Positions 1-17,250 of a DNA stretch of 31,483 nucleotides are shown piece after piece (positions within the stretch are counted from its first letter, which is position 1; every line of letters starts with the position of its first letter). The translations under genes were made by a program, and so were the position numbers. A model generated the notes under the pieces. It saw only the letters and a list, made by a program, of their open reading frames with translations, did not search any database and was not told where the DNA came from. Source of the stretch: Anaerolineae bacterium (GTDB lineage Bacteria; Chloroflexota; Anaerolineae; JAAYZQ01); the NCBI GenBank assembly GCA_016926595.1, contig JAFGOG010000174.1:1-31483 (forward strand). The letters run 5' to 3'.

Positions 1-783
1 CGCCGGATCGAGTACTGGGTGACTGTCCATGCGTGGTTTCCAGAAGGCGTCTGCGCGGAGCAGGCGCGCGCCACCGCAACGGGGACGATGCGCTGGCGCG
101 AGGCCGTCGCCGCGGTGTGGCAGCGGTTGGGGCGGGAACTGCGCCGGCGGCTGGCCGTGCTGGGGCGGATGCCCTTTCTCGGCGCCTACGACGAATACCT
201 GGGCCGGGCGTTGTGGGGAGGGACTGAGAACGACGCATGCTGGGCGTTCGAGGCACTGGCCGAAGTCGGCCTGGTCGAGCTCGTCGGAGGCGGGTACTAC
301 CACCTGCCCTGGCTGGTGTGGCTCTTTGCCCAGGAACAAGGTCAGGAGCTAAGGCCGCGGGACCGGCTGCGGGCGGCCGCGGCAGCCTGGCGTTATCCCC
401 TGCGAAAGAGGTGGGCGAACTGGCGGCTAGGCCGGCTGCTCGTGCCGGCGCCCGGCCGTGATTGGAGGCAATTCAACGCCAAGTGGTGGGACAACGACGG
501 GGCGGGGCCCCTTCCGGCCTGGCTGTACCGGCGTTATGTCTCTCGCCAGCGCCTCCCGCTGCCGGGGCCGGCCGAGTGGGCGGCGCTGGTGCGGATGCGC
601 TGCTTCTACGCCGGCATCTGGCTGGCGGTCGTGGCCGCTCTCATCCTATCAAGCCTCCTTCCTGCCTGGTGCACCGGCATCGCCCTCGCCGTGGGCCTGC
701 TGACGTTCTGGCTGGCCTGGGAAAACCAGCGGCGGATCAACTGCTGGCGGCACGGCCGGCAGTCGTTCGTCGAAACTGACTGA
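1..783 (+). CDS. C-terminal part of a winged-helix / membrane protein, probably NB-ARC (STAND)-like, 5' end outside window
   Basis: The reading frame is open to base 1, so this is the 3' end of a longer gene; the GTG at 19 is only the first possible start inside the window. Residues from about 30 to 110 (counted from that GTG) resemble the winged helix that follows NB-ARC nucleotide-binding domains: a helix with RRLAVLGRMPF, a short helix with ALW, then LVELVGGGYYHLPWLVWLFAQEQ-like text that echoes the family pattern 'LV.....YRLHDLVRLFARE'. Near the C-terminus are two closely spaced hydrophobic helices (about residues 197-235), followed by a basic tail. No P-loop is visible because that part would lie upstream. 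NB-ARC proteins are nucleotide switches used in regulation and defence. The assignment rests on pattern memory; a general winged-helix membrane protein is the alternative. It converges on the minus-strand remnant at 799-960. Confidence 0.45.
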   Translation, partial: RRIEYWVTVHAWFPEGVCAEQARATATGTMRWREAVAAVWQRLGRELRRRLAVLGRMPFLGAYDEYLGRALWGGTENDACWAFEALAEVGLVELVGGGYYHLPWLVWLFAQEQGQELRPRDRLRAAAAAWRYPLRKRWANWRLGRLLVPAPGRDWRQFNAKWWDNDGAGPLPAWLYRRYVSRQRLPLPGPAEWAALVRMRCFYAGIWLAVVAALILSSLLPAWCTGIALAVGLLTFWLAWENQRRINCWRHGRQSFVETD

Positions 784-798
784 GCCCACGGCGTGGGT

Positions 799-960
799 TC
801 AGTGCCGCCGTCTGTACCGCAGCAGCTTGAGCCGCAGGAAAGGGTGGGCGTCGGCGTGGTGCTTCTGGCACAGCACGACCAGATTGGCCAGGTCGTGGCT
901 GCCGCCATTCGCGACCGCATTGACGTGGTGCACGACGAGGTAGCGCAGGCGGGGGTGGGG
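799..960 (-). pseudogene. HNH endonuclease C-terminal remnant
   Basis: Read on the minus strand, the frame ending in TGA at 801-799 gives a clear HNH core: VVHHVNAVANGGSHDLANL followed by VVLCQKHHADAHPF. The pattern is HH, about 14 residues, N, about 8 residues, then H, as in HNH nucleases, whose two histidines and asparagine hold the metal and cut DNA. No ATG, GTG or TTG lies upstream in frame at a place that keeps the whole motif, and the expected N-terminal part with a CxxC pair is missing. Just upstream the frame runs into Pro/Gly-rich text made from a duplicated GC-rich block. I read it as the surviving 3' end of a gene damaged by that insertion or by recombination. It could instead be a real gene with its start hidden by a sequencing error. 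Confidence 0.55.
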
Positions 961-981
961 TGGAGGAAAGGCGGGGCCCGG

Positions 982-1049
982 GTCAAGGGGCCCGGAGCGC
1001 CGGCCGGCGGAGACGGAGGGACCCCTTGACGCGGAGCGCCGGCCGGCGG
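982..1049. repeat. GC-rich 18-bp direct repeat with flanking 9-bp inverted repeat
   Basis: The 18-mer CGGAGCGCCGGCCGGCGG occurs at 993-1010 and again, identical, at 1032-1049; its core GCCGGCCGGC is itself palindromic. GTCAAGGGG at 982-990 is perfectly complemented by CCCCTTGAC at 1022-1030, so the block can fold. It lies where the HNH similarity stops, and no coding signal is seen in the rest of the 961-1152 stretch. It may be a small mobile or dispersed repeat, or a folded terminator-like structure for the converging genes; there is no T-run to support the latter. Confidence 0.5.
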
Positions 1050-1152
1050 TACCAGCCGGACGCTGGTGCAGCAGCGCTATGAAGCGGCTAGAGAAGTCAG
1101 GGGAAAAATCCGAGGTGCTGCGCCAAACTGAAGGTGAAGCGAGAGGACAAAA

Positions 1153-1920
1153 TCAGCCTTGCCGTGCTGGCCGGGGGTTCAATTTGCGCGTAATGATCTC
1201 CTCATCAAGACCTTGGCGTAGATACTCAATCCGGGGATTCTCGACCAATCCCGGACCACCGGTGAGGCTTAGTGTGAAGGGGAAGAGCGCCGGCGTGCCG
1301 GCAATCGCGGCAAGCGGCGCCAAATCAGAGCCGCTGGCGATCAATGCCGCCTCGATGAGCCAGGCACCCAGTCGCCGGTCCTCTACCAACCTGGCAGGTG
1401 TGCCCCGATAGGTCCCCTTCGCCCCTGTCTCCAGCAATACACCCCAGTCGATGAAGGACCGCAGGACGCGCCTCACCGCCCGAGCCACCGTCGTCCGCTG
1501 CCCCAACTGCTCCCGCATCCGCCGTTGGACCTGCGCGGCCGAGGCCGCGCCTTGCAGTCGCAGCAGCCGACCTACCGTTTCGGCGACAGTTCCAACAAAG
1601 GGATAGACCGCCAGAGTCATGCCCCAGTGCACTGCCAGGTGTTCGCTGGCTGGTAGGCGCCGCAAGTGGTCGAGCCCCTCATCACGGAAGCTCTCCAGCC
1701 CCTCCGGTACGGACACCCATATCTTGAGCAGGATCGTGATAGCCTTCTCTCGAGTGCCGCGTTCGGCATCTCCCCCCACGGAGAGCCGGTCACGCAGATG
1801 TTCCTGCAGCGCAGCCTCAATCTGCACGCGAGACTGACCGGACATCATCCCTGCCGCCGTTTGTTCTAGCCACGCTAACTGGATGCGCTGGCTGAAGCCT
1901 ACTGCCATTGCTTCGTTCAA
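1153..1920 (-). CDS. BREX-associated small winged-helix protein (BrxA position)
   Basis: A 255-residue soluble protein and the last gene of the BREX operon. The start is TTG at 1920-1918: it overlaps the pglZ stop and has GGAGG five bases upstream, while the next in-frame ATG (1908) would be 17 bases from that site. Residues about 135-180 look like a winged helix (AAQVQRRMREQLGQRTTVAR, then VLRSFIDWGVLLETG), a form that fits DNA binding or protein contact. In type 3 BREX the terminal slot after pglZ is held by brxA, a small DNA-binding protein of the DUF1819 family with a similar fold plan. I cannot confirm DUF1819 membership from the text, so no symbol is given. No clear hairpin terminator was seen between its stop and the repeat near 1049. 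Confidence 0.6.
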   Translation of the reverse strand: MNEAMAVGFSQRIQLAWLEQTAAGMMSGQSRVQIEAALQEHLRDRLSVGGDAERGTREKAITILLKIWVSVPEGLESFRDEGLDHLRRLPASEHLAVHWGMTLAVYPFVGTVAETVGRLLRLQGAASAAQVQRRMREQLGQRTTVARAVRRVLRSFIDWGVLLETGAKGTYRGTPARLVEDRRLGAWLIEAALIASGSDLAPLAAIAGTPALFPFTLSLTGGPGLVENPRIEYLRQGLDEEIITRKLNPRPARQG

Positions 1921-3926
1921 CTCGACCTCCGGTCGATCTGTACAAAGGGAACGATCAGTTCTTCCAGGGAAATACCACCATGAGCGACGGTTCGTTCCCC
2001 TTCGGGAACAAAAGCCCGGCGATTGGGTGCGAACAACGCCAGAAAGTCTTTCGGTAGGCCAATCGTCGGCCAGACCAACGCCTCCGGGAAACGCTGCTGC
2101 ACCTGCGCGCGCAGGACCGCGTCGGGGTAAACGCGGACGCGCTCCCCGCGCAGGTCGGCGGTTGCGCCTTCTGCTGGCCGCCCCAAACCAACCGCTTCAA
2201 TATTGCCGTGATCCGAGGTCAGAAAGACGGCCCAGCCATGGTCCAGCAGTAGATCCAGCAGCCTGGTCAACGCGCCGCTCAGTGCCCACTGCCGGACCTG
2301 GTTGTGCATCCCACCTGTGCCCAACGCCATCCCGTGCATGATCTTGTCCACCTTTCCTACCACCAGGCCCACGACCTTGACTTTGGGATGGGCCAGCGCC
2401 TCCTCCACCACGACAAGGTTCTCTTCGTCGCCCGTGGTCCGGGCATACGCAATCTCCACCGGAACCAACCCTTCATTGACCCAGAACTGCTCCCATAGGC
2501 CGGCTTCTTTATCGGTAGACTGGAGGCTATCTGGGTAGAACAAGGGTATCTTGCCGGCAAAAGTGGCCTGACGGGAAACCGCAGTGGTAGTTGGAAGCCA
2601 GGCAAAGACGGCACTCTCGCGAAACCGCAGTCCCGATTGCTGCTCCTGCAGCGCCTCGCGTAGCACAACCCACTGGTCCAACGCCAAACCATCCAGCACC
2701 ACCAGCGCGACCTTGTTCCCGGTCTGCACGCGGTGCAGCGCCAAGGTGCGGGGCAAATGGTGGAGCATAATCGGAGGTCGCGGCGGCTGGTTGTGTAATC
2801 CGGCATAGTGCTGTCGCACCCAGGACACAAAGGCTGCATCTACCGAGCCCCAAAGTGCCTGGGCATGTTCCTCCCTTTCTGCTCGCGCTGAAGGGGCCAC
2901 CGCATGCCAAAGGACAGTCCATTCAGCCCAGCGCGGCGCATACTGAAGCCACTCACCGTGCCGGGCCGCCGGGGCCGGCATCTCTGCTAGCAGCGACTCG
3001 CTCAAGCCGTCCAATCGCCGCAGGCGATCGGTCTCCGCGTCAAACCGCAGCCCTACGGCCACCCACTGCTGGGCCAGCACGCCAGGGTCCGCCCAGGGAA
3101 GCGGGCGCAAGAGACCATCCAGAAAGAGACTATCCACATAGACCTTGACATCCTGGTGCGCAAAGGGAAGGGTCGCCGGACCGGGATAGGACAGATGTTG
3201 AGCTGCCTCAGGTCCGGGATCGATGGCCTGCCCCGCATCCGCAGCCAGCTGAAATATAAAGGGCGGCCAGCGCTCCTGCAAAAAAGCCAGGAACGCTTCG
3301 CGATCGGGAACAATCTGCTCCAAGGGCCAGCCAGCGAAACGCCCGTCCCGGCGCAATAGCTGGACCAACCGTTTATCCAGCACCGGCGGTATACGCTGCT
3401 GGCGATAGTGTCGGCGCAATAGAAAACGCAGCAGGTCGGCGTCGTTCTGGATTAGCTCAGGGGCAAACTCGAATACGTAGCGCAGCACGAAATCCTTGGT
3501 GGCCATCTCCCCCAGGGGCGGCGGGCGATGCTGGGACTGGGCGTGGTAGAGGGCGTCCAGGTCGCTGCGGTCCAGTACGGCGACGACCGGGGAACTCAGA
3601 TGTGGAAAGATATCGGCAAGACAAAAGGCAACTTGCCGGCCGGCCCGAAGCAGGTCGTAAGGCAGGGACTGCAGGTCGTGGGCCGGGTCCCGCACAACAA
3701 TCACCAGGTCAAGCGGGGCACCGTGTTCCCAACGAACCCGGTAGGTGGATTCGTAGGCGAAACGGAAGGCGACGGGATCTTCCAGGACGAGCAACTCGTA
3801 GCCGCGCGCGCGAATGTCCTCCAGAACGCCCTGTTCCAGAAGCAGTGCATCGGGATCGGCTACCAGGGTCAGCCGAGCAGCCTGGGGTGGAAACTCTTTC
3901 ACTATCAGATCGCGCCATCCGGCCAT
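1917..3926 (-). CDS. pglZ: BREX phosphatase-like protein PglZ
   Basis: A 669-residue protein with a C-terminal alkaline-phosphatase-superfamily domain typical of PglZ. Visible metal-site and nucleophile elements are VALVVLDGLALDQW (D412), FAWLPTTTAVSRQATFAG (T446-T448), GKVDKIMHG (D527, H531), FLTSDHGNIEAVG (D572, H573) and VAHGGISLEELIVPFV (H649, followed by the usual GG, EE and P). The first 380 residues are a helical N-terminal region without a motif I can name. PglZ is a core, essential part of all BREX types and acts with PglX and BrxC; its exact substrate is not settled in the literature I know. ATG at 3926 has GGAGG six bases upstream. It starts 24 bases after the methyltransferase and overlaps the last gene by 4 bases. 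Confidence 0.88.
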   Translation of the reverse strand: MAGWRDLIVKEFPPQAARLTLVADPDALLLEQGVLEDIRARGYELLVLEDPVAFRFAYESTYRVRWEHGAPLDLVIVVRDPAHDLQSLPYDLLRAGRQVAFCLADIFPHLSSPVVAVLDRSDLDALYHAQSQHRPPPLGEMATKDFVLRYVFEFAPELIQNDADLLRFLLRRHYRQQRIPPVLDKRLVQLLRRDGRFAGWPLEQIVPDREAFLAFLQERWPPFIFQLAADAGQAIDPGPEAAQHLSYPGPATLPFAHQDVKVYVDSLFLDGLLRPLPWADPGVLAQQWVAVGLRFDAETDRLRRLDGLSESLLAEMPAPAARHGEWLQYAPRWAEWTVLWHAVAPSARAEREEHAQALWGSVDAAFVSWVRQHYAGLHNQPPRPPIMLHHLPRTLALHRVQTGNKVALVVLDGLALDQWVVLREALQEQQSGLRFRESAVFAWLPTTTAVSRQATFAGKIPLFYPDSLQSTDKEAGLWEQFWVNEGLVPVEIAYARTTGDEENLVVVEEALAHPKVKVVGLVVGKVDKIMHGMALGTGGMHNQVRQWALSGALTRLLDLLLDHGWAVFLTSDHGNIEAVGLGRPAEGATADLRGERVRVYPDAVLRAQVQQRFPEALVWPTIGLPKDFLALFAPNRRAFVPEGERTVAHGGISLEELIVPFVQIDRRSS

Positions 3927-3950
3927 GCCCCGCCTCCGGTAGGCCCAGGT

Positions 3951-6743
3951 CTACTTCTCGCCACTGATGCGGGTCTCGGCCTGGTCGTACCACATCAGCA
4001 GCTTGGGGTCCTCCTGCAGGACCTCGTCGGGGAGCTTGTGGGCGACGGCGATGATGGTGCCGTAATCGCGTTCCTGCCAGGCCTTTTTGAAACCGGCCCG
4101 AACCGCTTCAAGCCGGAACACGTCTAGCTTCTGCTGGGACGAGGCCCGGTATTCCTCAAACTCACGCAGTAGCATACTCTCACGGCGCTTCTCCAGGTCG
4201 TCGGCCCGGCTGGGGTCGGGGACGTACCAGCGGTCCTTGGCCACCAGCCGCAGCGACGATCCGGCCGTGGCGGGATCCTGGCCTGACATCTGCTCCCGGT
4301 ACTCGGTCTGCATACGCATCCAGGTCCAGATGGCGTCGGGGATAGGTCCCTGCCCAGAGTAGCGGAGGAAATTCTCTTCCAACAGGCGGGAAAGCTCCAG
4401 GGCCTGTTCGTGCTTCTGCCAACCCGCGATTTCCTTGATAAAGTGCGGATGGATCTCCTGGAACGTCTGCGGCTTCTGGGCCAGGGCCTGCCGCAGCCAC
4501 TGTACGGCGCTGGCCTCATCGGTGACAAAGAGCTCCAACTGGCGCACCCCGCGGGCAACCAGTCGCTGCCGGTCGTATTCCACCACCTGGTCCGGCAAAA
4601 AGTACATGCCGTCCCGCTCGGGGAAACGCTGCTCCAGTCCGGCGAGAAACGCGGGCGCCGACAACGGCACCGTGATCCCGCGCTGGACATGGAAGGCAAC
4701 CATACGGTCGTAGAGCAGGTAGGCCTGGCGCTCGGCAACCACCTCCAACTGGTTGTCCTGCATAATACACACAGGCAACTGCCGCAGGTGCGCCCGCGTA
4801 AAATCCCAGGCCCCTTCCTCTTTCCCCTCCGCCAGAGAAAACCGCTCCTCCAGGCCGCCGTTCGGCTTGTAGGTCGAGATCACCAGGTCCTGCTTGACCG
4901 CCGTGCTGGTCACCTGGCGATAGGAGCGCTGCTGCTTGTCGAGGGTGCGCACGTCAGCCACCACAAACCCGGCCGCCTGCAGTGCCTCCTGTATGGCGTT
5001 CCAGACGGCGTTGCGCGAATTGTGAAAGACCACCGTCATCCAGCGCCCCGGCTTGAGCACGCGGTAGTACTCCTCAAAACAGCGCCGCATCAGATCCTGG
5101 TAGTCCAGGAGCTGCTTGCCCTTGGCCCGATCGATGATCGCCTCCGGTCCGGTGTCCGTCCAGACGCGGTGCCACGACTCCACGAGATAGTTCAGGTCGG
5201 CGTAGTAGATGTTCTCGCCAAAGGGCGGGTCGGTAAAGATATAGTCCACCGAGTTCGCCGGCAGGCCCAGGTGGGCAGCATCGCCGGTAGAGATAGCGGC
5301 CTGGCCTAGCACTGCATAGCCACGCTGGAAGGCCCGCGCCAGCCGCTTTCTCTTGCCCTCCAGGACGTACCAGGGGCTGCACTCGGAAATCTGGGAGGGT
5401 ACGTAGTAGACACCGGTCAGATATTGATTAACTTGCGAATAACCAGTCGGGCGGTAACGGTTGAGAACTGACATTGTCCAAAGCGCCTGCTCGACAAAGA
5501 ACAAAAGCGTACTGCGCAACCGCGGCTCCTCCGCCGCAGCAGCCTTTTCCCAAAGCCATCCCAGGGACTGGGCGGCGCGGGGCAGGAAGAAGTGGTGGAG
5601 ATGGGTGATCCCGAACGCCTCCATACGAGCTCGCTGGTGCGTCATATGCATAAAGGGAAGCTTGTTTGTCGGCACCGCTGCGGGCAGCGGGCGAGAGTCG
5701 GCCTTCTTTACGAGCGCCAAGTCCTCGGCGTCAGGCGCCTTATCAAAGCGCTGCTTGCCCACGCGGTAGTGGATGCGCGCGGGCGCGCGCCGAACTCGCT
5801 TGATCGTCTCACCAATAACGGGGTCAAAGTAGCTTTCATACAGCCGGTCCAGCCGAGATTTGGTCAGATTGGCGCCGCAGTGCGGGCAGGGAAATTGCTC
5901 TCGCACCCGGCCGCTTTCGGTGTCCAACGCTTCCTCCAAGAAAGTGATCTCACCACCGCAGTGCGGGCAGGCAAAGACCTCGCTCCAGACGGTGTAGTCG
6001 ATCCGCCCGGCCTGGCCATCGCTGTGGCGCGTCTCGTACATCCAGCCCAACTCCGCCTCCAGTTCATCCAGCAGCTGGCGGGACGCGCGGGCAAAGGCCG
6101 GGGCGTCCCAGGGCAGGTTATAGTTGGCGGCGATGAAGGTAGCCGCCGGGCTGAGGTCGTTCAACAGAACGCGTCGTGGCCCCCACGGGACGTCCGGGTG
6201 GGCGGAGGCCCGCCACTCCGCCTCCACCAGCAGCCGAAACTCGGCATCGGGCTGGCCACACATCTGGGCCGCCACGCCGGTCATCCCCGTGCCGGCAAAG
6301 CCGTCGAGGACGAGGTCGCCCGGATCGGTATAGTGTAGAATAGCCGGGACAATGGCCCGGTAGGGCACCTTGGTGTGGTAGGAGTGGGCTGCGTAGAGTG
6401 GCCCGGTCTTGCCCTCGCTGACGTCGACGGCGAAGGGGTCGCGGTGGTAGCTGTCGGCGGCCGGGTCATAGGGGTGGCCGTACAGTCGGACGAGCTCATC
6501 CAGGAAGGGATTCGGGCAGGCAGTATAGTAGGGCGGGTCGGAGAGGCCCAGGATGTCCTCGTCGCTGGCGCAAGGGAAGCCCGGCACCTGGCGCAGGGCC
6601 GGGTCCCGGAGCTTTTCCCGCAGCCGCTCCCGGAAGTAGGCACGGCGGGCCACGTCATCAGGGAAGGTGCGCCCGAGGCACTCGACGGGGCCGTTGCTGG
6701 TAGTCCCCTGGTCCGTCTCCGCGAAAGTGTATTGCCGGCTCAT
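3951..6743 (-). CDS. pglX: BREX adenine-specific DNA methyltransferase PglX (PglXI-type)
   Basis: A 930-residue DNA methyltransferase. The SAM-binding motif I is VLDGFAGTGMTGVA (about 146-158), with a second acidic strand LLNDLSPAATF after it, and the catalytic motif IV is DYIFTDPPFGENIYYADLNY (DPPF at 505-508). Between them are two CPHCG pairs (C259/C262 and C286/C289), a probable zinc ribbon within a target-recognition or insert region. Motif I comes before motif IV with roughly 350 residues between them. The last 300 residues are helical and probably hold more recognition or partner-binding surface. In BREX this enzyme methylates host sites and is also needed for phage exclusion. The ATG at 6743 overlaps the stop of the upstream gene by 4 bases and has GAGG eight bases before it. 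N6-adenine specificity is inferred from family, not from a distinctive residue. Confidence 0.85.
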   Translation of the reverse strand: MSRQYTFAETDQGTTSNGPVECLGRTFPDDVARRAYFRERLREKLRDPALRQVPGFPCASDEDILGLSDPPYYTACPNPFLDELVRLYGHPYDPAADSYHRDPFAVDVSEGKTGPLYAAHSYHTKVPYRAIVPAILHYTDPGDLVLDGFAGTGMTGVAAQMCGQPDAEFRLLVEAEWRASAHPDVPWGPRRVLLNDLSPAATFIAANYNLPWDAPAFARASRQLLDELEAELGWMYETRHSDGQAGRIDYTVWSEVFACPHCGGEITFLEEALDTESGRVREQFPCPHCGANLTKSRLDRLYESYFDPVIGETIKRVRRAPARIHYRVGKQRFDKAPDAEDLALVKKADSRPLPAAVPTNKLPFMHMTHQRARMEAFGITHLHHFFLPRAAQSLGWLWEKAAAAEEPRLRSTLLFFVEQALWTMSVLNRYRPTGYSQVNQYLTGVYYVPSQISECSPWYVLEGKRKRLARAFQRGYAVLGQAAISTGDAAHLGLPANSVDYIFTDPPFGENIYYADLNYLVESWHRVWTDTGPEAIIDRAKGKQLLDYQDLMRRCFEEYYRVLKPGRWMTVVFHNSRNAVWNAIQEALQAAGFVVADVRTLDKQQRSYRQVTSTAVKQDLVISTYKPNGGLEERFSLAEGKEEGAWDFTRAHLRQLPVCIMQDNQLEVVAERQAYLLYDRMVAFHVQRGITVPLSAPAFLAGLEQRFPERDGMYFLPDQVVEYDRQRLVARGVRQLELFVTDEASAVQWLRQALAQKPQTFQEIHPHFIKEIAGWQKHEQALELSRLLEENFLRYSGQGPIPDAIWTWMRMQTEYREQMSGQDPATAGSSLRLVAKDRWYVPDPSRADDLEKRRESMLLREFEEYRASSQQKLDVFRLEAVRAGFKKAWQERDYGTIIAVAHKLPDEVLQEDPKLLMWYDQAETRISGEK

Positions 6744-8551
6744 CGGTTATCCTCGCTGCTGGCGGGCGGTTCGTTGTCTGGCTGGCTATGCAGGTGGGTG
6801 TCCTTCAGCTGCACACCGAACTCGGTCAGCAGATAGCTCTGCTGGGGGTGCGTAAGCTGGTCCGGATGTGTCCTGCGCAGGATATTCGCATCCAGCAAGG
6901 GCTGCAAGACGTCTCGGAGAAAAGCTGTCTGGCTCTTGATTCCCACAATCGCCTTGATCTCCTTGCGTTTACGGGGAACGTCACAGTAGAGCACAACCCG
7001 CCACTGGTCAGCGCTCAACTGGTGGAGTGGACCGCCGGGCTTGGTCGCTGCGGCTGCTACAGCCGCGGCGCCAGGGACACGGCCATATGTAGCACGCAAG
7101 TGACCGGCCAGCAGATAGTACGGCTGGGGCTGCGCATCGACGCGCTCGAGAAGGACCTGCGTTACCAGGCGGTCGAGCACAGCCTGGGCCCTATGACCGG
7201 GCAGTCCGGTTACTGCCTTCGCGTCAATCAGGTCTACATGGTCTTGGCGATAGACCAGGGCCAACACCTTGGCTTCGTCCTCTCCCAGCCGAACACCCAA
7301 CTGAGCTCGGAAGAGGATCTGTTCCTCGGAAAACAGACTCTGTTTGAGCAAAGTCAAGCGGAACGAGTTGTCGCCCTTGTCATTCTCAACCACCGGTGGA
7401 ACCCAACCCATCTCCGCCCAGTTGTGGAAGATCGCGCGCAGGCCTGTGCCGGCTTGTTCGCTTAGACCGATCCGGCGAAACGCCCCCACAATTCTGGGAT
7501 TGCGCACAGTTTTCTCGCCAGGCTCCAGCAGCTGCTGGCGCGGGAGGAAGGCGTCTCCGGGGTTCCAGAATACGGTTCGGTCCTGGAAGAACGCAACAAG
7601 AGGGGTACGGTGCTGATCGCCAAAGTCCTGATGCATGAGCAAGTTGACAAGTGCCTCCCGGAAAGAAATATAGTCGGGCGGAAGGTCTGTCCGCTGAAGC
7701 GTCTCCGGATCAACATGAAACGCGCTTTCTGCATGTCGAAGGTAAAAGTCGCGCGCCCCTCGCCACGACTGGACCAGGTTCACTTCGCCTGTCCAGCGGT
7801 CGTCGAACCGTTGACTGGAGGACAGATCGTCATGGGGGTTATTGTGCCACTGGCAATCCACAATCGCGCGCGGAAGCACCTGCAGCAGTGCCGGTACGGT
7901 GCCAAAGAGGAGCACACTGGCTCGCGTTGGCTTGAGTTGAGCGCCGACCTCTACCAATAAGCCCCAGTGGTGCAGGAACTCGACATCGGAGAGTGCCTGG
8001 TCCTGCTGAGGATTGCGGCGCTGGAATTCGCTCCGGTACCATTGGACAGCGTCGGGATCAAAGCACCGGCCTGGGTCAACATCAACGGTCTCGCTATCGT
8101 ATGGTACCGAGGAAGCCTCCCGGACAAAGCGTTCGATTTCCGCCGGCGCGCAGCGGAGATCACATCCTCCTCGCCGGATGAAGGAATTGCGAATGTCTCC
8201 GTCGAGAAAGACCGGTTTCTCCTGGCGAGGGGCCTCGGGAATATAGAACACCAACAGGGGCTTCCCCTCGATCTGAACAAGATCTGCTTGAAAAGCAATT
8301 GCTTGGTTGACTTTGCCCGAGCGCAACGTAGAGATGAACTCGTTTTGCACCTGGTCAACGGCAATCACGCCAATGACTTCGAAACTGCCGTCCGTTTGCC
8401 GCACACCAAAAACGAGCCATCCCCCAGCGGTATTTGCAAAGGCGGAGACCGTCTCGTAAGCTGACCTGGGCGCATGTTGTTGCGCCGCCTTGAACTCGAT
8501 GTCGTTCCATTCGTACGCTCTAAGTCGTTCAATCAGCTCATCCCGATCCAT
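6740..8551 (-). CDS. AlbA_2 domain + GHKL-type ATPase + winged-helix protein in the BREX operon
   Basis: A 603-residue protein in three parts. Residues 1-135 form an AlbA_2 (Schlafen-like) domain: IEFK at 18-21, SAFANTAGGWLVFGV at 36-50, and a basic NSFIRRGG segment near 122-129. Residues about 290-400 show a GHKL ATP-binding fold (HATPase_c_4 type): the N-box REALVNLLMHQDF (E299, N303), FWNPGD at 328-333 and SEQAGTGLRAIF at 364-375. The last 200 residues contain winged-helix-like text. Such proteins are often mislabelled RecG-related; there is no helicase P-loop here. The gene lies 18 bases after brxC and shares ATGA with pglX, so it is translated with the BREX core. GGAGG stands seven bases before the ATG at 8551. 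Its role in BREX is not known to me; nucleic-acid sensing, regulation or an effector role are possible. Confidence 0.8.
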   Translation of the reverse strand: MDRDELIERLRAYEWNDIEFKAAQQHAPRSAYETVSAFANTAGGWLVFGVRQTDGSFEVIGVIAVDQVQNEFISTLRSGKVNQAIAFQADLVQIEGKPLLVFYIPEAPRQEKPVFLDGDIRNSFIRRGGCDLRCAPAEIERFVREASSVPYDSETVDVDPGRCFDPDAVQWYRSEFQRRNPQQDQALSDVEFLHHWGLLVEVGAQLKPTRASVLLFGTVPALLQVLPRAIVDCQWHNNPHDDLSSSQRFDDRWTGEVNLVQSWRGARDFYLRHAESAFHVDPETLQRTDLPPDYISFREALVNLLMHQDFGDQHRTPLVAFFQDRTVFWNPGDAFLPRQQLLEPGEKTVRNPRIVGAFRRIGLSEQAGTGLRAIFHNWAEMGWVPPVVENDKGDNSFRLTLLKQSLFSEEQILFRAQLGVRLGEDEAKVLALVYRQDHVDLIDAKAVTGLPGHRAQAVLDRLVTQVLLERVDAQPQPYYLLAGHLRATYGRVPGAAAVAAAATKPGGPLHQLSADQWRVVLYCDVPRKRKEIKAIVGIKSQTAFLRDVLQPLLDANILRRTHPDQLTHPQQSYLLTEFGVQLKDTHLHSQPDNEPPASSEDNR

Positions 8552-8569
8552 CGCAAACCTCCACAGTCT

Positions 8570-11500
8570 CTACTCCAGGACAATCCGCACCTTGGTGGCA
8601 TCCTTGCCACTCGTCAGCCCGGCCAGGTACGATTCCAGGCGTTTCTTCATCTCCGCGGGCGTGGCCGGTGCCCCACCGGTAAAGAGAGCCGCGCCGAGGT
8701 CTTGTATCCGCACCGGCACCTTGATCAGTCCGGCCAGGGCCTCCTGGAGAGCCTGGATGAACTCGGGGCTCAACTCGACAGGCAGGCTGCGCGCCTCCAG
8801 GAAATCGCGCAACATGGCCTGTGCTTCCACGCTTAACAAGGCCAGGTTCGCCTGCGTGTCTGGATCAGCAAGGTTATCCAGCAGAGCCTGCGTCCAGCTC
8901 GCCAGCAGCCCGTCCATCTGGCTGTCCAGTGTGGCCAGCAGCAGCCCGGCCGCCGTGCCGACAGACTCGGTGGCCGGCCGAAAATGGCAGTGTGGGCAAA
9001 GTGGCGTCGTTTGCAGGTCGGTCTCGGCCAGGGCGAAGCAGCTCGGCAGGCCGGCCAGACGTTCCTTCAAGTCAGCCAGTTGGCCCGCCGGCAGAAGGTC
9101 AATGGCTGCCAGCTTCTCCAGGCGTTCCAACCTGCGGTCGCGCAGCAGCGTCTTTTTCTGACGGTCTTCGTTCGCTCCCAACCGCGCCCGTGTGTGGAGC
9201 TCCATATACTTGACCAGGTAGCCCTGCTTGAGCCTGCTCAAGCGTTGAAGCGTCTGCTGGCGGAACCCTGGGGATTGGCGCTGGGCCGGACTGCCTATCT
9301 GCGCCAGCACCTCGGCCTGCGCATCCTTCACCTGTTGGACCCAGGAATGATCCCCAGGCAGGGCCATCTCGGCCTGTGCGAGATAACCCGCCAACACCCC
9401 AAGGTCGCTCACCAACCCATACAGTGCCAGTACCTCGCTCATAACGTCCATTCCAGCCTGTTGAGCCTTGATCTGGCCCACATCGCAGCGCAAGTTCTTG
9501 AGCTTGCCGGGGGAATTTAGCGTCTGGAGGGATTCCAGAAAGGCCTGGGTGCCCTCCATACGGACACCGTATTCCCCCTGTTCGGTCTCGCCCAGCAGGT
9601 TCCGTCCCCAGAAGGGAAGCCCACTCAGGACAACCTGGCGAGCCTGGACCAACCGGCCCACCGCCTGCGCAATCGCCGACTGAAGGGTCTGCACAGGTTC
9701 ATCCTTGCCCTGCGCCACCAGTTGGGCCATTCCTGGTGCCAGCCCCAGGAGTTCGAAGAGGGCTTGCAGGGCCGGCAGGTTCCAATCCTTCGGCTTTTCG
9801 ATATGCTTGAAGCGGAGCAAATCGTCCCAGGACACGTTTGCCAGATCATCCAGGTTGCCGGCATCCACCTTTCTGCCAGGAAGGGCCAGTACCGCCTCCC
9901 CGCCATACACCATTGCGACCAGCAGAACGACGCCCCATTCGGGTTCCAGCCGGTATTGCTGCGGAGCCATGTACTCCAGCCCCTGCACATCCTGGAATAT
10001 CTCGCTGCGGTTCAGCACCTGCCCCTGCCCCTTTCTGCCGAGCAAGTCGGAGAGGTACTGGACGTAGCGAGAGTGTGCCGGGGCCAGACGGTCCCCGTCG
10101 AGCAATTCCAGAGCGTCCAGCACGGCCGTAGCCTGCTGGGTCTTGGTCACTCCCCTGATCCACCGTAGGGAGTCTTGGGCTGCCTGAGGCATATTGGCCC
10201 GGGTGATCAGCACGGAGAAGGTTGGATAGGCAGGGGCCTGATCAGCGAAGTGGGCAGCCAAGCAAACCGAACTCGCAGCATTCACAATGTCGCGGACATT
10301 GGTCACCGCACTGCTCATGAGGGGAACTCTCCCCGGCCGTCGAGCCTCCTTGACCCACTCCAGGAACGGCCTGCTTCTCCCTGCGCAGCCTACGTCATAG
10401 GCCGTGGTCATATGCTCCTGGAACCACTTGACCAGTGCTGTCAAGAACGCCGCTGCCTTGCTTTCGTACGTGGTCTTTGCCTGGCCGGAAGCGGTCGCCG
10501 CCAGATCCAACGCTGCCGCATAGTGGTTCAGGGCCAGGGAAAAGGTATCATCTATCCCCGTAAGCCTGAAGAAGACCTCGTCAGATCGCTTCTCGTCCTG
10601 GAAGAAGGGCGGGTCGTGAGGCTGGACAAAGTACAGGTAAAAGTCCCGCGGTGGCTGAGCCGTGGAGCGTTCGTTCGGCGTGCCAAAGAACATGTAGCCG
10701 GCCCGGGCGGCCCGCCGCTCCAGCCACTCCAACTCATACTCCCAGGCCAGGTGCGTGCCGGGGTAGTACTGATCGGTACGCTCGAGTATCTTGGCCAGGG
10801 CGTTGAAGTAGGCCCGGTTCAGTTGTTCCTCATCCAGGCTCTCGGCCCGTCGGTCAATCAGCGCATCATAGTCCACATCTTTCGCCGGGTCAAGATAGTA
10901 CTGTCCGCTGTCGGGTGCCCTGGAGATAAACTGCCCGTTGACGGTGCGCATGATCTCCCGCAGCACAGTATCGACCTGCGTTAGGAGGTCGGCTGCCGGC
11001 TCACCGCCCAGATCCTCAAGGCCCGGCTGATACAGGCAGAGCTGATCGCGCAGTTCCCCGGCGGTGGGGCCCAAGGGTGCATAGATGTCCCCTGTCGTCA
11101 GACGGTGAACCGAGAGCGCATGGACGATCCGCAGGGCCATCGGCCGGTAGGCCGGCCGGGAAGAAGCCTGCTGGACGCGCGCTTCGAGCACCTGGCTGCA
11201 GTCAATCACCTTGCGGATCTCGGGCACGGCGCGAAACGCCGTGTTCTGCCGCAGCGTGTCCCAGTAGCTATCATAGGCGAGCAGTCCGGGCTGCTCGGCA
11301 GGAATCTCCACGTCAAGCATCTGGCGCATCGCACGGGAGAGCGTCTTGAGCACCTCGCGCTTTTCGACTGCCGTAATGCGCTCGAACGTATCGATGTAGT
11401 CCGGATGGACGGGAAAGAGCCGGACATACTCGTCCATGCGCTCGTTCATATCCCCATAGAAGCGGGCCAGAGGCCGCAGGTGCTCGCGGATGCGCACCTG

Positions 11501-12298
11501 CTGTTCGGCCGTCTTTTTCAGCAGCCGTTCTGCGACAACGAATTTCACATCCCTGCGGGCTATTGGAACCTGCTCGAAGCGGTCTTTGACCCGCCGAATC
11601 GTCTCGGCAACAAAGGAGAAACGTGGATTGTCAAACAACATCTCCTGCACGCCAGCGATGAAGCGGAAGCGCAGGTCGCGGCAAACCTCGCCGATCTCGC
11701 GTAGAAAGCTCAGGTCCAGGATCAACTCCTGATCGCGACGTGTGCGGAGGTAATCAAGCAACTCATCCACGACGAGGAGGAGGCCGTGGTCCGGGTACTG
11801 ACAATGGAAAGCAGCCATCATCTCCTCAAAGGCCGGCTTGTTGCTGCTGACCTGGTCCGCCGTCGGAAAGGTATAGCTGACCCCCATATCGGCCAGGTGT
11901 TCCTCGAGTTCCGCAGCCACTATAGCGCCGAGCGGCATTGTGGTAGCACCAATCTCGGCGCGGACTACCTTGAACTTGCCGGCGATCGCAGCCGCCTCTT
12001 CGGCCACGCGCGGGTTGCTCAAGACAGCGGTCAGCTCAGCATATTCGGCGATGCCGGAGATGACCGACATCAGGTGGGACTTGCCGGTACCATAGTTTCC
12101 CACGACGAGCAGGCCCTTGTTGTCAGCGGGATGCTCAAACTGAAGCTGTGGAAACACGACACCGGTCAGCCGATCGGCCATCTCATCCGATATCACGTAG
12201 GTGGCCACCAGTTGCCGGGCCGCTGCCATCTGGTCCGCATCCCGCAGTTGCACCACGGTCTCAATGGGCTGAAACTGAACCAGGTCGCGGTATTTCAT
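8570..12298 (-). CDS. brxC: BREX large ATPase BrxC (DUF6079 / PglY-like)
   Basis: A 1242-residue protein of the size normal for BrxC. An AAA-type ATPase core lies at the N-terminus: Walker [10 protein letters not shown] at 67-75 and Walker [13 protein letters not shown] at 173-184, followed by [19 protein letters not shown]. The opening [18 protein letters not shown] is characteristic of the DUF6079 family. The long middle and C-terminal parts are helical, and near the end there is a cysteine cluster with a CPHCHFRP motif (about residue 1075) that may bind zinc. BrxC is a conserved BREX component thought to couple ATP hydrolysis to the modification and exclusion complex. ATG at 12298 lies only 2 bases past the brxF stop codon, with AAGGGGA upstream as ribosome binding site, so both are on one transcript. 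Confidence 0.88.
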
Positions 12299-12300
12299 TG

Positions 12301-12777
12301 TCAGATTCCCCTTTCCAGGCTCACCACCAAGAGGTCTTGAATGGGATAGCGACGGTACTCAGGGTGTCCCGGTACCGCGTAAATGAGGTGTCCGCGGTCG
12401 ATTGTGCCATTCCAGGCAGCCACCACAGTGCGGTTGCGAGACACGGACTGCAGCAAGCGGAGCGGATCCTGTTTGAGCGCAGCATCAAAGAGGATCTCGA
12501 TGTTGTCGAGGAGCACCAGGGAAACGTCGTCTCCGGTCGCAATGTCGCCCAGTATTCCGGGCAGGTCCAGGGTGCGTCGGCGTTCGGTCAGACCCAGCAA
12601 TCGGCGGCTGAGTTCCAGGTTCACGTTCACATAGGGAGCCCCGGTGCGCCTGGCCACCTCCTGCAGCACGGCGGTCTTGGCATGTCCGGAGGGCGCCACG
12701 ACCAGGAGCAGCCGATAGTAGAGCTCTGCCGCCTGATCAATCTGCGCAATAATCTGATCCGTAAACGGCTCGTTCAT
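12301..12777 (-). CDS. brxF: BREX type 3 P-loop-like protein BrxF
   Basis: First gene of the operon. I choose ATG at 12777 (158 residues, [12 protein letters not shown]...) because AGGG precedes it and a GTG at 12852 would have no ribosome binding site and almost no leader. The text [20 protein letters not shown] at 18-37 is the BrxF-type nucleotide-binding start, [14 protein letters not shown] near 85-98 is a Walker B, and the C-terminus has [19 protein letters not shown], which fits the family end. The Walker A is degenerate: APSGHAKT lacks both consensus glycines (GxxxxGKT) while keeping Lys34 and Thr35, so ATP binding may be weak. BrxF marks type 3 BREX and always travels with BrxC. Two bases separate its stop from the brxC start codon. 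Confidence 0.78.
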
Positions 12778-12828
12778 TGGAAGCCCTTGGCATGTCACAG
12801 ATTGTCTCACGAGCGAATAACCTATCGC

Positions 12829-12855
12829 GGTGTGGACCGTCTTCTCGTCCACGCC
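12829..12855. repeat. Inverted repeat in the BREX leader
   Basis: GGTGTGGAC at 12829-12837 pairs with GTCCACGCC at 12847-12855 across a 9-base spacer, with one mismatch in nine. It lies just downstream of the candidate BREX promoter, so it could be an operator for a repressor or a hairpin near the 5' end of the brxF mRNA. No T-run follows, so a terminator is unlikely. Confidence 0.5.
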
Positions 12856-12874
12856 GTGCTTCGGCTACGTGCTT

Positions 12875-12903
12875 ATCTTACCACATTTTCGGCCGAGTGT
12901 CAT
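12875..12903 (-). promoter_or_regulatory. Candidate sigma-70 promoter of the BREX operon
   Basis: On the minus strand ATGACA (-35, five of six to consensus) at 12903-12898 is followed after exactly 17 bases by TAAGAT (-10, four of six) at 12880-12875. Transcription would start near 12868, giving brxF a leader of about 90 bases that contains the inverted repeat at 12829-12855. Confidence 0.45.
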
Positions 12904-12932
12904 CTTGACGTTTCGGCAGAACAACAAACCTG

Positions 12933-12961
12933 TTGAAAAACAAGCCAAAGTAAAGTAGAAT
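12933..12961 (+). promoter_or_regulatory. Candidate sigma-70 promoter of the divergent nuclease genes
   Basis: TTGAAA at 12933-12938 and TAGAAT at 12956-12961 are separated by 17 bases, a near-consensus arrangement in an AT-rich stretch. Transcription would start near 12968, about 35 bases before the ATG at 13003. It points away from the BREX promoter, with only some 30 bases between the two -35 boxes, so one regulator could control both arms. Confidence 0.55.
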
Positions 12962-13002
12962 GGAGCTGTACCGGGTTTGATGGCAGGCAAGTGAGGACCA
13001 TA

Positions 13003-14268
13003 ATGGATGCCGAGAAAACCTCTGAGCAAAAAATCAGTCTGCACTCCCAGGTGCTGGCGTCCCCTGCATATCAGGAGAGGTGCGAACCACTTTTCGATTT
13101 ATTCCGCCTGAGCCGAGAGGCCAGCAAGGATCCGAAGGCTATTCTCATAATACAGATGGGCTTGGCCGAGGTCCTTATGCAGTTCCAGAGCAAGATGACC
13201 GAATTCAAGCAGACGGGCAATCATCTCGGCGTTGCCGTTGCGAAACGTCTGACCCTGATCACAAAGCAGATTGCTGACTCGCTAGCCTGGCGCGTGCTCG
13301 GATTTGACCGAATTCTGGTACAGCTACTCGCAGAACATGCAAAAACCGGAGCCCTGGACAACAGCCTGGCAGGTGATTTCAGTGTCGCCCAAAACATCGT
13401 GGAGGAACAGGATGCAATTGTGCTGGTCAATGACCTAACCTCTATACTGCGGCATGGAGACCTAACCATAATCGGCGAAGGCGACATTACTCTGGTGGAA
13501 ACCAAATACGGCAGAGCCTCAAAGCGTAACCGCCGGGCCAAACGACAGCGAACCCGCATGGAAGAGCTCCTGGGCTTTCTGAATACAGGCGTCCGCATCC
13601 GAAAAGGGAGACGCGACTTGATCATTAGAGCTGATGTTCCTGTTACGACCTATCATTCCGCTGTTGCAGAGGTGATTTCCCAAGCAAGAAAGAGGGGATA
13701 TCACAGAGTAGATGTCAGCGATGCACTGGTAGTTGAAGGCGTATGGATGAAGAGCGAGGGAAATCCTTCCCCACATGAACGCCCGTTCGCAGGCGTCGAG
13801 CATGTTATACAGTTTCACAATCTATGGTCGTTTGACCGACCAACTCCAAGAACCGCTCCTTATGGGATATTCCCTCTTGATCATCAGAGCTGTTATGCCT
13901 TGATCACTGGGGAAATACTACTCACTGCAACTCTCAACTTCGACCAACTCCAGGTACTCTACGGGCGGTACGGTCTCCAGCTTGACGTCCCTCGACCTAG
14001 CAAGGAGATAATGCAAGCTTACCTTACCGCTTCAGTAGCGGAGCGGAAGCGGCTGAACGTCGGCTCGTTTACCATCAGGAGCCCCAATTGCGAACTTCGG
14101 CTTATGCCAGACCTGTTTGGGCGGATCGGGCTGGAATTCATACAAGAAGAGACAATCCTACAAGCTGATCGCCAACTTGTAAACCTGGTTGAAGCCCAGG
14201 GCATCACTTACGAGACACCTACTCGATTCTACATTGGGTACAAAGATGAAAGCGGTATCTGGGTCTGA
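13003..14268 (+). CDS. PD-(D/E)XK-like nuclease-fold protein, unknown family
   Basis: A 421-residue soluble protein. ATG at 13003 is chosen over the GTG at 12991 because GAGG sits five bases before it. The first 110 residues are helical. The stretch HGDLTIIGEGDITLVETKYG (151-170) has the spacing of a PD-(D/E)XK active site: D161 and E166-T-K168 on adjacent strands. It is followed by a very basic helix (RASKRNRRAKRQRTRMEELL) like the R...RQ helix seen after the ExK strand in several nuclease-like families. The remaining 230 residues match nothing I recognise. A role as a nuclease in defence is inferred from this motif and from its place divergent to the BREX operon and in front of two other nuclease-like genes. 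By eye its G+C is below that of the BREX genes, which suggests separate acquisition. Confidence 0.6.
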   Translation: MDAEKTSEQKISLHSQVLASPAYQERCEPLFDLFRLSREASKDPKAILIIQMGLAEVLMQFQSKMTEFKQTGNHLGVAVAKRLTLITKQIADSLAWRVLGFDRILVQLLAEHAKTGALDNSLAGDFSVAQNIVEEQDAIVLVNDLTSILRHGDLTIIGEGDITLVETKYGRASKRNRRAKRQRTRMEELLGFLNTGVRIRKGRRDLIIRADVPVTTYHSAVAEVISQARKRGYHRVDVSDALVVEGVWMKSEGNPSPHERPFAGVEHVIQFHNLWSFDRPTPRTAPYGIFPLDHQSCYALITGEILLTATLNFDQLQVLYGRYGLQLDVPRPSKEIMQAYLTASVAERKRLNVGSFTIRSPNCELRLMPDLFGRIGLEFIQEETILQADRQLVNLVEAQGITYETPTRFYIGYKDESGIWV

Positions 14269-14408
14269 GCAACACGCCTAATTATCCAGCCAGCACAGCG
14301 ATGGCTGAGCGCAATTAGCGGTCCCGTGCCTTCATCAACCACCACAGAGAGATTCAATGGTTGACCCATAGCACCGCGACCATCGCGCAGTACACACAGG
14401 GTAATCGT

Positions 14409-15407
14409 ATGCCGCCGAGACCAAATCAGCCTCATAGCAAAGGATATGTTAAACGACTCCGCATGTTCGAGTTGTTTTCACGAAACCTGTCTTATGTCAA
14501 AAGACATCCAAGGATAAGGATAAATCCCGATATTGAGGAGAGCTACATTTGCCCGATCTGCTTCAAGCTGTTTACAAGAGCGGCGCTGTCAGATCAGTAT
14601 GCTGACCGCCTTACACTCGAGGATGTCCCTCCAAAGTCACTTGGAGGGAGGGCTCGAGTATTGACCTGCAAAATATGCAATAATCAGGCAGGCACGGAAA
14701 TTGAGAGTCATCTACACCAGAAACTCCGCGCTGACCAGTTTTTCTCTGGGGTGCCTGGCGTTGAGATAGAAACCCGATTCAGGCCTGATTCATCGGTTGA
14801 CCTAACGGCAACGACCCATTTCAGTCCTGAGGGTACCATCGAGATCAACTATGATCCTGCCAGATCTGACCCTGCCCAGATCGATAGGCTGCACGAGCTG
14901 GAGATGGCTGGCACGATATCAAGTATCCAACTCGTTTTCCGGCTTGGCTATCATGCGAATCGACCGCAAGTGGCCCTGTTAAGGATTGGCTATCTGTTGG
15001 CTTTTGCCCAACTGGGATATGGCTTCCTTATAAACGCGAATCTTCGGGTCATCCGTGGTCAGATAGATAATCCAACATCAAAGATATTGCCTAGCTGGGG
15101 AATAATAGGCGCGGGTATTCCGGATGAGGCCCTTGGCGTCAGTGTTATATCGCAACCACCGGAACTACGATCGTTCCTAGTCGTGTTCGATCTCAAAAAC
15201 CTGGAGAAGGAGATGCGATACGGCGTCATTCTCCCAGGTCCGACAGAACCGGGGCTGAATGTCTATCACTACATCGCCGAACTCGAAAAAGCAACCGGTG
15301 GAACCGCGGTCGAACATACAATCCACACTTTGCACCAGGATGACTATCTGAGAGATCCGTCCCTTGCTTTCGCCTCCCACACCCATTGGGACTACTATTG
15401 TCAGTGA
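14409..15407 (+). CDS. HNH-like zinc-motif protein, probable endonuclease or derivative
   Basis: A 332-residue protein. I use ATG at 14409 (AGGG seven bases upstream); an in-frame TTG at 14361 is possible but lacks such a site. Residues 46-100 form a treble-clef-like zinc motif: YICPICFKLF (C48, C51), LTLEDVPPKSLGG (69-80) and LTCKICNNQAG (C87, C90, N91, N92). This is the layout of HNH endonucleases of the CxxC...H..P..LGG...C..CN type, but the position where many members have His reads Asp (E-D-V-P-P), so cutting activity is uncertain. The remaining 230 residues are unassigned and may recognise the target. It follows the PD-(D/E)XK-like gene by 140 bases with no clear separate promoter and precedes the Mrr-like gene by 19 bases, so a three-gene unit is likely. 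Confidence 0.6.
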   Translation: MPPRPNQPHSKGYVKRLRMFELFSRNLSYVKRHPRIRINPDIEESYICPICFKLFTRAALSDQYADRLTLEDVPPKSLGGRARVLTCKICNNQAGTEIESHLHQKLRADQFFSGVPGVEIETRFRPDSSVDLTATTHFSPEGTIEINYDPARSDPAQIDRLHELEMAGTISSIQLVFRLGYHANRPQVALLRIGYLLAFAQLGYGFLINANLRVIRGQIDNPTSKILPSWGIIGAGIPDEALGVSVISQPPELRSFLVVFDLKNLEKEMRYGVILPGPTEPGLNVYHYIAELEKATGGTAVEHTIHTLHQDDYLRDPSLAFASHTHWDYYCQ

Positions 15408-15426
15408 AAGGAGCAGGTCAGTCAGC

Positions 15427-16827: not shown

Positions 16828-16932
16828 AGCCTTGATCAGCGAGACGTGATGCACCATAGCTCCACTCGAAGAACTTGGACCCAGGCGTCGTGGTACAATA
16901 GGAGCACGAAACGACGTCAGACGGAGGACACG

Positions 16933-17250
16933 ATGGTCAACCCCGCCATCAAGCTGCCGGAAAAAGAGGTGGCCGACTTTTGCCGGCGCTGGCGCAACCC
17001 CTCACTGGCCCTGTTTGGGTCGGTGCTAGGAGAGGACCTTTCCCCCGACAGCGACCTGGATATCCTGGTCACCTTTGACCTCGAAGACTACTGGAGCTTG
17101 CTCAACCACGTGCGGATGGAGCAGGAATTGGCCGCCCTGCTGGGCCGCGAGATCGACCTCTTCACGAAGCGTTCCGTCGAGCGCAGCCACAATCCCATTC
17201 GCCGCCAGCACATCCTGGACACAGCGGAGGTGATCTATGAAGCGCGATGA
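16933..17250 (+). CDS. MNT-domain nucleotidyltransferase (antitoxin of a HEPN/MNT pair)
   Basis: A 105-residue minimal nucleotidyltransferase. ATG at 16933 is preceded by GGAGG. The active-site signature LFGSVLGEDLSPDSDLDILV holds GS at 29-30 and the metal-binding D41 and D43, with a third acidic residue in REIDLFT (D75). In HEPN/MNT toxin-antitoxin modules such proteins neutralise the HEPN RNase, in studied cases by adding AMP to it. The gene overlaps the next frame by 14 bases, the usual arrangement for this pair, but that partner is truncated, so this appears to be an orphan antitoxin. TACAAT at 16894-16899 could be its -10 box; no good -35 was found. Confidence 0.8.
   Translation: MVNPAIKLPEKEVADFCRRWRNPSLALFGSVLGEDLSPDSDLDILVTFDLEDYWSLLNHVRMEQELAALLGREIDLFTKRSVERSHNPIRRQHILDTAEVIYEAR

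Follow-up and report, generated by a model that had tools for sequence, protein, structure and literature searches.

A type 3 BREX operon of an Anaerolineae bacterium that lacks BrxHII and carries a BREX-linked Schlafen-GHKL-winged-helix protein

Introduction

How bacteriophage exclusion (BREX) systems stop phages is unsettled, including whether they need an unwinding or translocating protein (BrxL, BrxHI or BrxHII). This question is raised anew by an operon of an Anaerolineae bacterium (assembly GCA_016926595.1, contig JAFGOG010000174.1), found in a stretch of 31,483 nucleotides that we call the window. The operon has the genes of type 3 BREX without the helicase gene brxHII, and it encodes in addition a protein with AlbA_2 and GHKL ATPase domains, a bacterial Schlafen. 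A first-pass annotation, made from the sequence alone, had proposed that this protein replaced the helicase and that the operon represents a distinct BREX subtype. We find that it is neither a new subtype nor a simple replacement. Our preferred reading, to which we give about an even chance, is a type 3 BREX system that lacks BrxHII and has a BREX-linked Schlafen-GHKL-winged-helix protein as a backup module. The new and testable part is a link between this one Schlafen subfamily and the absence of BrxHII. Natural operons without BrxHII, often with this subfamily, allow a direct test of both the need for a helicase and the contribution of the Schlafen; absent such a test, the operon counts as a variant that combines two features known before.

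Results

The operon and its missing helicase

Six tightly packed, co-directional genes run on the minus strand from 12777 to 1153 as a single operon, brxF-brxC-AlbA_2/GHKL-pglXI-pglZ-brxA.

12301-12777, minus strand: brxF, 158 aa from ATG; PADLOC BrxF, E 1.6e-69; NCBIfam NF033453 BREX_3_BrxF, 191 bits (cut-off 50)
8570-12298, minus strand: brxC, DUF6079 AAA+ ATPase, 1242 aa; Pfam PF19557, 1672 bits over residues 1-1242; PADLOC PDLC02482 BrxC, 1830 bits
6740-8551, minus strand: Schlafen protein with AlbA_2, GHKL HATPase_c_4 and Fic-like_C winged helix, 603 aa; all three domains above Pfam cut-offs
3951-6743, minus strand: pglXI (BrxXI) adenine methyltransferase, 930 aa; PADLOC PDLC02541 PglXI, 1351 bits over residues 8-928; DPPY and DPPF motifs
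3927-3950, minus strand: pglX-pglZ junction, 24 nt, empty, with no relic and no open reading frame (ORF) of 70 codons; the BrxHII interval in other type 3 operons
1917-3926, minus strand: pglZ, type 3, 669 aa; NCBIfam NF033449 BREX_PglZ_3, 767 bits (cut-off 250); Pfam PglZ
1153-1920, minus strand: brxA, DNA-binding, 255 aa; PADLOC PDLC02444 BrxA, E 7.2e-82

The Pfam, PADLOC and NCBIfam assignments confirm the gene order given by the first-pass annotation, as well as its statement that neighbouring genes overlap or lie no more than 24 bases apart (from brxF to brxA a 2-nt gap, an 18-nt gap, a 4-nt overlap, a 24-nt gap and a 4-nt overlap). Each of the six genes matches the family profile made from its relatives nearly end to end, and the best PADLOC E-values of the five BREX genes are at most 1.6e-69, so that chance assignment is no concern. 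Hidden Markov model searches against BREX models gave matches to five type 3 families, BrxF, BrxC/PglY, PglXI, PglZ and BrxA, all at high scores and, for BrxF and PglZ, above the NCBIfam BREX-3 cut-offs. The call of a type 3-like BREX was therefore right, and the small winged-helix gene that the annotation had left unnamed is brxA. In BrxC, the Walker A (G67, G72, K73, S74) and Walker B (D178, E179) residues are invariant in a 28-row alignment of brxC (A1). BrxF has GHAKT at its Walker A region and is described in the main text of a 2026 survey (PMC12839542) as a P-loop-related protein of type 3 BREX of an inactive STAND type; a longer GTG frame would extend its gene to 12852.

Canonical type 3 BREX has BrxHII between pglXI and pglZ. 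This gene is missing here, and we file the operon as a helicase-less variant. A BrxHII profile built from relatives found neither the gene nor a relic in the window (six-frame segments of at least 25 codons, E <= 1e-4), and the pattern [VILMF]{2}DE[ACGS][HD] had no match in the window's open frames of more than 150 codons, which bears out the earlier observation that no frame of the window has a DEAD/DEAH helicase motif. Among the scanned ORFs of the window no helicase family was matched, apart from the wording 'helicase recG C-terminal' in the Pfam title of HATPase_c_4, which is the GHKL domain. The annotation had also taken brxHII to be a regular member of type 3 loci. It is a usual one, but not universal, being present in just 77% of type 3 systems according to the main text of the survey (PMC12839542).

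Sampling of related operons

Alignment A1 led to 80 loci (numbered here with the prefix L), the best 80 of 516 confirmed relatives in genome contigs. BrxC was further searched in 369 genomes of the class of L058, 7 of which had a match at E <= 1e-100, and in the phyla of L051 (3 of 294 genomes), L065 (7 of 297), L030 (29 of 395) and L076 (8 of 281). Some matches were genomes already sampled, and the searches of the L058 class and the L051, L065 and L030 phyla gave 23 new stretches. From plasmids (7 records) we used three loci, L212-L214, and from viral contigs one of two. Six of seven Chloroflexota stretches (the phylum of L076) were analysed and none was added to the counts. L225 and L227 have BrxHII and no window-type Schlafen, L226 and L229 are cut, and L228 and L230 gave no BrxHII match, which their high divergence makes little informative. 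L228 encodes BrxC, PglXI, a 1266-aa protein, a DruE/YprA-like helicase and BrxA, with no recognised PglZ, and may belong to the YprA-helicase systems described recently.

Seven gene profiles were run on six-frame translations, so that frame-shifted and partial genes were detected; frame-shifted BrxHII (L018, L023, L161) was scored as present. An operon was counted if BrxHII was seen or if the pglX-pglZ interval was readable, and a Schlafen was assigned to the window's subfamily at 380 bits or more, the next highest score among counted rows being 151 bits. The 75 counted rows comprise 54 of the 80 loci, 15 loci fetched later (12 with BrxHII, L160-L165, L171, L172 and L174-L177, and three without, L167-L169), L207, L210, L212-L214 and the window. 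The 26 loci dropped from the 80 are 25 whose contig ends before the interval and L025, in which BrxHII is present and degraded; L166, L170, L173, L178, L179, L181, L182, L183 and L211 were also dropped. For 22 dropped loci the genomes were searched: 12 have BrxHII somewhere (E <= 1e-110), and none of the 22 stretches has the Schlafen subfamily. Two dropped Schlafen loci whose contigs end, L003 and L173, probably have BrxHII, and L051 and L072 are outside the counts. In L009, L014, L039, L048 and L052 BrxHII lies just past the first stretch, on a contig of equal length, and for L006, L041 and L062 contigs were matched by coordinates and strand only.

Absence of BrxHII is associated with one Schlafen subfamily

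Among the 75 rows, 12 have the Schlafen without BrxHII, six have both, eight have neither and 49 have BrxHII alone. BrxHII is thus absent from 12 of 18 Schlafen operons and from 8 of 57 others (Fisher p 4.1e-5). The association stays when the window and three near-duplicates are removed (8/14 vs 8/57, p 0.0017) and when L003 and L173 are counted as having BrxHII (12/20 vs 8/57, p 1.6e-4). The survey of the AlbA_2 gene with and without brxHII, which the annotation had suggested as a check, therefore shows an association with absence, but not mutual exclusion. L042 and L056 resemble the window most closely, with the identical six genes in the same order and no ORF between pglX and pglZ. L061 has an empty junction with neither Schlafen nor BrxHII.

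On the BrxC tree of the 75 rows, Schlafen operons without BrxHII are scattered over five positions, namely the window; a clade of six rows (L056, L057, L058, L065, L167 and L168, support 100) with the Schlafen in all and BrxHII in none; L021, L033 and L042; L050; and L075. The window lies outside the six-row clade and groups with L036 and L037 (support 100), both of which have BrxHII; its own lineage probably once had BrxHII too. On this tree the helicase requires at least 12 changes and the Schlafen at least 11, and the combined state, Schlafen without BrxHII, needs at least five even when only well-supported branches are kept. A correlated-change model on the BrxC tree supports a dependence of helicase loss on the Schlafen (likelihood ratio 9.4, p 0.002), a value reached in none of 40 simulated sets, with the cautions that the model rates are poorly determined and that the trees were made with FastTree. 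The p value is 0.005 without near-duplicates, 0.006 without the window and 0.008 on a 51-row PglZ tree.

As a control we considered other Schlafen-type genes in these operons. BrxHII is present in 11 of 12 operons that carry them, which is no effect (p 0.40), the set being small and the power little. Ten of the 12 genes lie at the same place, and those of L062 and L073 are not between brxC and pglX. Of the 13 candidate proteins, 11 match a Schlafen Pfam model; L169 was omitted as it has no AlbA_2 match, and with it BrxHII is present in 11 of 13. A tree of the Schlafens left operons with and without BrxHII unseparated (7 changes, shuffled mean 7.6), but it has a flawed row for L065 (1010 aa) and long branches, and we did not use it.

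Helicase loss, cargo and selection

BrxHII relics lie ahead of pglZ in 5 of the 20 helicase-less operons (L004, L021, L030, L068 and L075), and therefore the helicase was lost, rather than absent from the start, at least there. The pglX-pglZ interval contains ORFs of at least 70 codons in 16 of the 20, and it is empty in the window, L042 and L056. In eight operons the interval ORFs were scanned and match defence-system models: SIR2-HerA (L167), Ppl (L168), a DinG-like PDC-S28 helicase (L033/L180), PDC-S19 (L050), NsnB/HEC-03-like proteins (L021/L208 and L075), HEC-02 (L057) and Cas5 with Cas7 of a type III-D CRISPR system (L054/L206). The interval ORFs of L029, L058 and L068 have the sizes of those of L075, L057 and L050, respectively. 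At L180:5260, L188:10055, L007:11789, L014:21539 and L045:14585, pglX is followed by a short duplicate of its own C-terminal end, from within residues 880-940. Several of these copies lie beside inserted genes, as if cargo had entered the 3' end of pglX with a duplication.

The operons without the helicase seem to be kept by purifying selection where this was measured from their sequences. In the trio L065, L167 and L168, all genes are full length and the ratio of nonsynonymous to synonymous substitution rates (dN/dS) is 0.13-0.15 for brxC and pglX, 0.17-0.20 for the Schlafen gene and 0.20-0.28 for pglZ and brxA; between L057 and L058 it is 0.29-0.39.

The Schlafen protein

The AlbA_2, HATPase_c_4 and C-terminal winged-helix domains, all above Pfam cut-offs, place the protein among the bacterial Schlafen AlbA_2-GHKL-winged helix-turn-helix (wHTH) proteins. 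PADLOC and NCBIfam gave no model for it, only a weak PADLOC match to an Argonaute-associated protein (E 0.00045). Its residues 148-494 are predicted to fold like PDB entry 3lmm. The AlphaFold2 (AF2) model of the AlbA_2 part is of low confidence (predicted local distance difference test, pLDDT, 30-45 over residues 1-130), and for this reason the domain was judged by sequence profile.

A copy of this Schlafen is found in 3 of the 297 genomes from the acidobacterial phylum to which L065 belongs (E < 1e-200, at most four candidates scored per genome), and each copy adjoins a type 3 brxC. The subfamily is BREX-linked by this measure. The Schlafen of L057, and also P0006 and P0020, have tandem LVTDQ-type repeats in the linker from the GHKL part to the C-terminal winged helix; their copy number varies widely, and the window protein has none.

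Schlafen RNases like SLFN13 have a site of three carboxylates, E, E and D. By profile alignment, with the numbering offset inferred, E14 and E19 of the window protein align with E205 and E210 of SLFN13, and the third carboxylate, D248, aligns with Q52, so the full site is lacking and RNase activity of the window copy is doubtful. An acidic residue, D or E, occupies position 52 in 111/120 homologues and 17/22 copies from our loci. E14, E19 and the GHKL N-box are invariant (120/120), and D17 is near-invariant (118/120); judging from this conservation, D17 could substitute for the missing carboxylate.

Discussion

The mechanism that we propose for the preferred reading has two layers. PglXI would methylate self DNA; BrxA, BrxF and BrxC would recognise and process unmodified DNA; and PglZ would be the primary effector, by analogy with the nicking nuclease role reported for type 1 BREX in the main text of PMC12839542. 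The Schlafen protein would form a second, ATP-switched layer, in which the GHKL domain might be the sensor, either of a nucleotide or of the complex's state, the winged helix might contact DNA, and AlbA_2 might bind, and perhaps cut, RNA when the first layer fails. BrxHII may be lost more easily where a window-type Schlafen is present, because the output proposed for the Schlafen requires no DNA translocase. A stronger version, which we regard as tentative and rather unlikely, would be that a BREX-dedicated Schlafen subfamily makes the BrxHII translocase dispensable and that a helicase-independent type 3 BREX was reached several times independently.

Several points weigh against these proposals. 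The subfamily label and the 380-bit threshold were fixed after the window and the scores were seen, and the sample is skewed to close relatives of the window BrxC. Eight helicase-less operons have no window-type Schlafen. Without the six-row clade the dependence falls to p 0.042 in a one-parameter and 0.098 in a four-parameter test, and an independent-pairs sign test does not reach significance (p 0.25 at the median, range 0.06-1), with 3.2 pairs in the expected direction vs 0.1. The glutamine at position 52 speaks against an intact RNase site, and the basis throughout is gene sequence, the biochemistry being a proposal.

The alternative that survives best is plain decay: BrxHII would be repeatedly lost, the pglX-pglZ interval would be a busy site for cargo, and the Schlafen link would be due to chance, shared ancestry or sampling. 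The relics, the ORFs in 16 of 20 intervals, the defence-system matches in all eight operons scanned, the eight helicase-less operons without the Schlafen and the non-significant pairs test all fit this explanation. We nevertheless consider it unlikely, if plausible, given the tests of correlated evolution, the control set of other Schlafens, the purifying selection on helicase-less operons, and the intervals of the window, L042 and L056, which have neither cargo nor relic.

It is also possible that the Schlafen-GHKL-wHTH protein is mainly a regulator, whose winged helix controls transcription of the operon while AlbA_2 merely binds nucleic acid. The conservation of E14, E19 and the N-box in all homologues and of an acidic residue at position 52 in most argues against this, and a location in the middle of the operon would be unusual. 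The BREX regulators known to us are WYL proteins encoded upstream of the operon, and WYL genes are found there in L213 and L214. We therefore think a mainly regulatory role doubtful.

The replacement put forward by the first-pass annotation, read as a single event in which the AlbA_2/GHKL protein assumed the role of the helicase and gave rise to its own subtype, does draw on the association with BrxHII absence and on the six-row clade. It would predict a single lineage, and this is contradicted by the five tree places, which form no single clade, and by the grouping of the window with L036 and L037. The two genes are not mutually exclusive either, as six of 18 Schlafen operons have both (L016, L037, L172, L176, L212 and L214), probably joined by L003 and L173. 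Two of these, the annotated plasmid operons of Roseomonas mucosa (L212) and Roseicitreum antarcticum (L214), show a seven-gene form with both genes, the Schlafen being annotated there as 'RNA-binding domain-containing protein'. Their positions also differ: the Schlafen lies between brxC and pglX in all 18 resolved operons, and BrxHII follows pglX and is ahead of pglZ wherever the stretch reaches that far. GHKL ATPases, moreover, are not known to act as translocase motors. A distinct subtype that forms one lineage is thus contradicted, replacement is not supported, and the one-time takeover is improbable.

A source of BrxHII outside the operon but within the same genome is very improbable: the window covers only 31 kb and the genome of L030 has a second BREX-3 operon with BrxHII (L071), but no full-length BrxHII was found in the nine searched genomes of Schlafen-bearing helicase-less relatives, that is, those other than L167 and L168. 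Across eight of the nine (L033, L042, L050, L056, L057, L058, L065 and L075) the BrxHII model reached at most 353 bits, in a partial match, one of these genomes having only its known relic and one no match at all, and the genome of L021 has no BrxHII at E <= 1e-110. Full-length BrxHII scores 1327-1685 bits elsewhere, with two divergent copies at 675 and 819. A second type 3 BREX operon is present in the L042 genome (L207, G009:C53); it has neither BrxHII nor the Schlafen, and its pglZ is split.

Neighbouring genes

Beyond brxF, the window contains the following features.

12875-12903, minus strand: putative sigma-70-like promoter with extended -10, upstream of brxF, a consensus match only
12991-14268, plus strand: 425-aa gene, oriented divergently to brxF; matched by no Pfam, NCBIfam or PADLOC model
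14361-16560, plus strand: HNH_5-like protein (slightly under the Pfam cut-off) and Mrr_cat restriction-type protein, mutually overlapping, directly behind the 425-aa gene
16846-17250, plus strand: MntA-like antitoxin; 39.7 bits, short of the NCBIfam cut-off of 60

Seven promoter-like sites were found in 700-13100, with 2.1 expected. The 425-aa gene has 59 further homologues, three of them named from Anaerolineales or Chloroflexi. Its AF2 model is confident (pLDDT 87.6), and structure searches gave no convincing PDB match. D153, E166 and K168 are invariant in the family (421-aa numbering) and look like a putative PD-(D/E)XK-type motif. The nuclease genes at 14361-16560 are likely a separately acquired cassette, because their G+C is about 0.51-0.56 vs about 0.60-0.66 in the BREX operon. 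None of the 425-aa, HNH_5-like and Mrr_cat proteins had a match in the ORFs of the 80 relative loci.

Comparison with known systems

To our knowledge, the N-domain of SLFN13 has neither a GHKL nor a wHTH domain. Two of the three catalytic carboxylates of this tRNase align with the window copy and D248 differs, aligning with Q52 (PDB 5yd0, with the chain named Schlafen 8; SLFN13 as covered in the available text of PMC5862951). The DIP2311-like AlbA_2-HATPase proteins (PDB 3lmm; AlbA_2 domain 2kyy) differ in their C-terminal winged helix, which is Fic-like_C in the window protein, and in lacking its BREX context.

With type 3 BREX (brxF, brxC, pglXI, brxHII, pglZ, brxA) the window shares five genes, their order and their strand; it differs by the missing brxHII and by the Schlafen between brxC and pglX. 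Type 3 BREX lacking BrxHII and the presence of a Schlafen in BREX are both known already, since both appear in the main text of PMC12839542. This survey lists the combination of a Schlafen RNase, a minimal histidine kinase and a wHTH among the auxiliary effectors associated with BREX cores, with at least 1017 taxa counted, and describes the Schlafen with a histidine-kinase-like domain and wHTH as a backup effector of BREX. The first-pass annotation had allowed that its AlbA_2 gene might be a routine, already named member of type 3 BREX; it is a named BREX auxiliary, and it is not a type 3 core gene. A phrase search of the survey's main text found no statement that links the Schlafen with the absence of BrxHII, the available text of PMC12458937 has nothing on Schlafens, and we found no other treatment of the question in the literature searched, which misses most subscription papers.

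The window protein has the same domain set as the Schlafen auxiliary effector that the survey's main text (PMC12839542) describes for BREX and BR systems, and it too lies within the core operon; it differs as a subfamily adjoining type 3 brxC and by the glutamine at the third active-site position. A further parallel is BxaP, which according to the available text of PMC10799925 is an accessory gene inside type 3 BREX that protects alone, likely by an abortive route. Like the window Schlafen, BxaP is embedded in a type 3 operon; in contrast, it is another protein, structurally like PD-T7-3, and it lies between pglXI and brxHII in operons that have kept brxHII.

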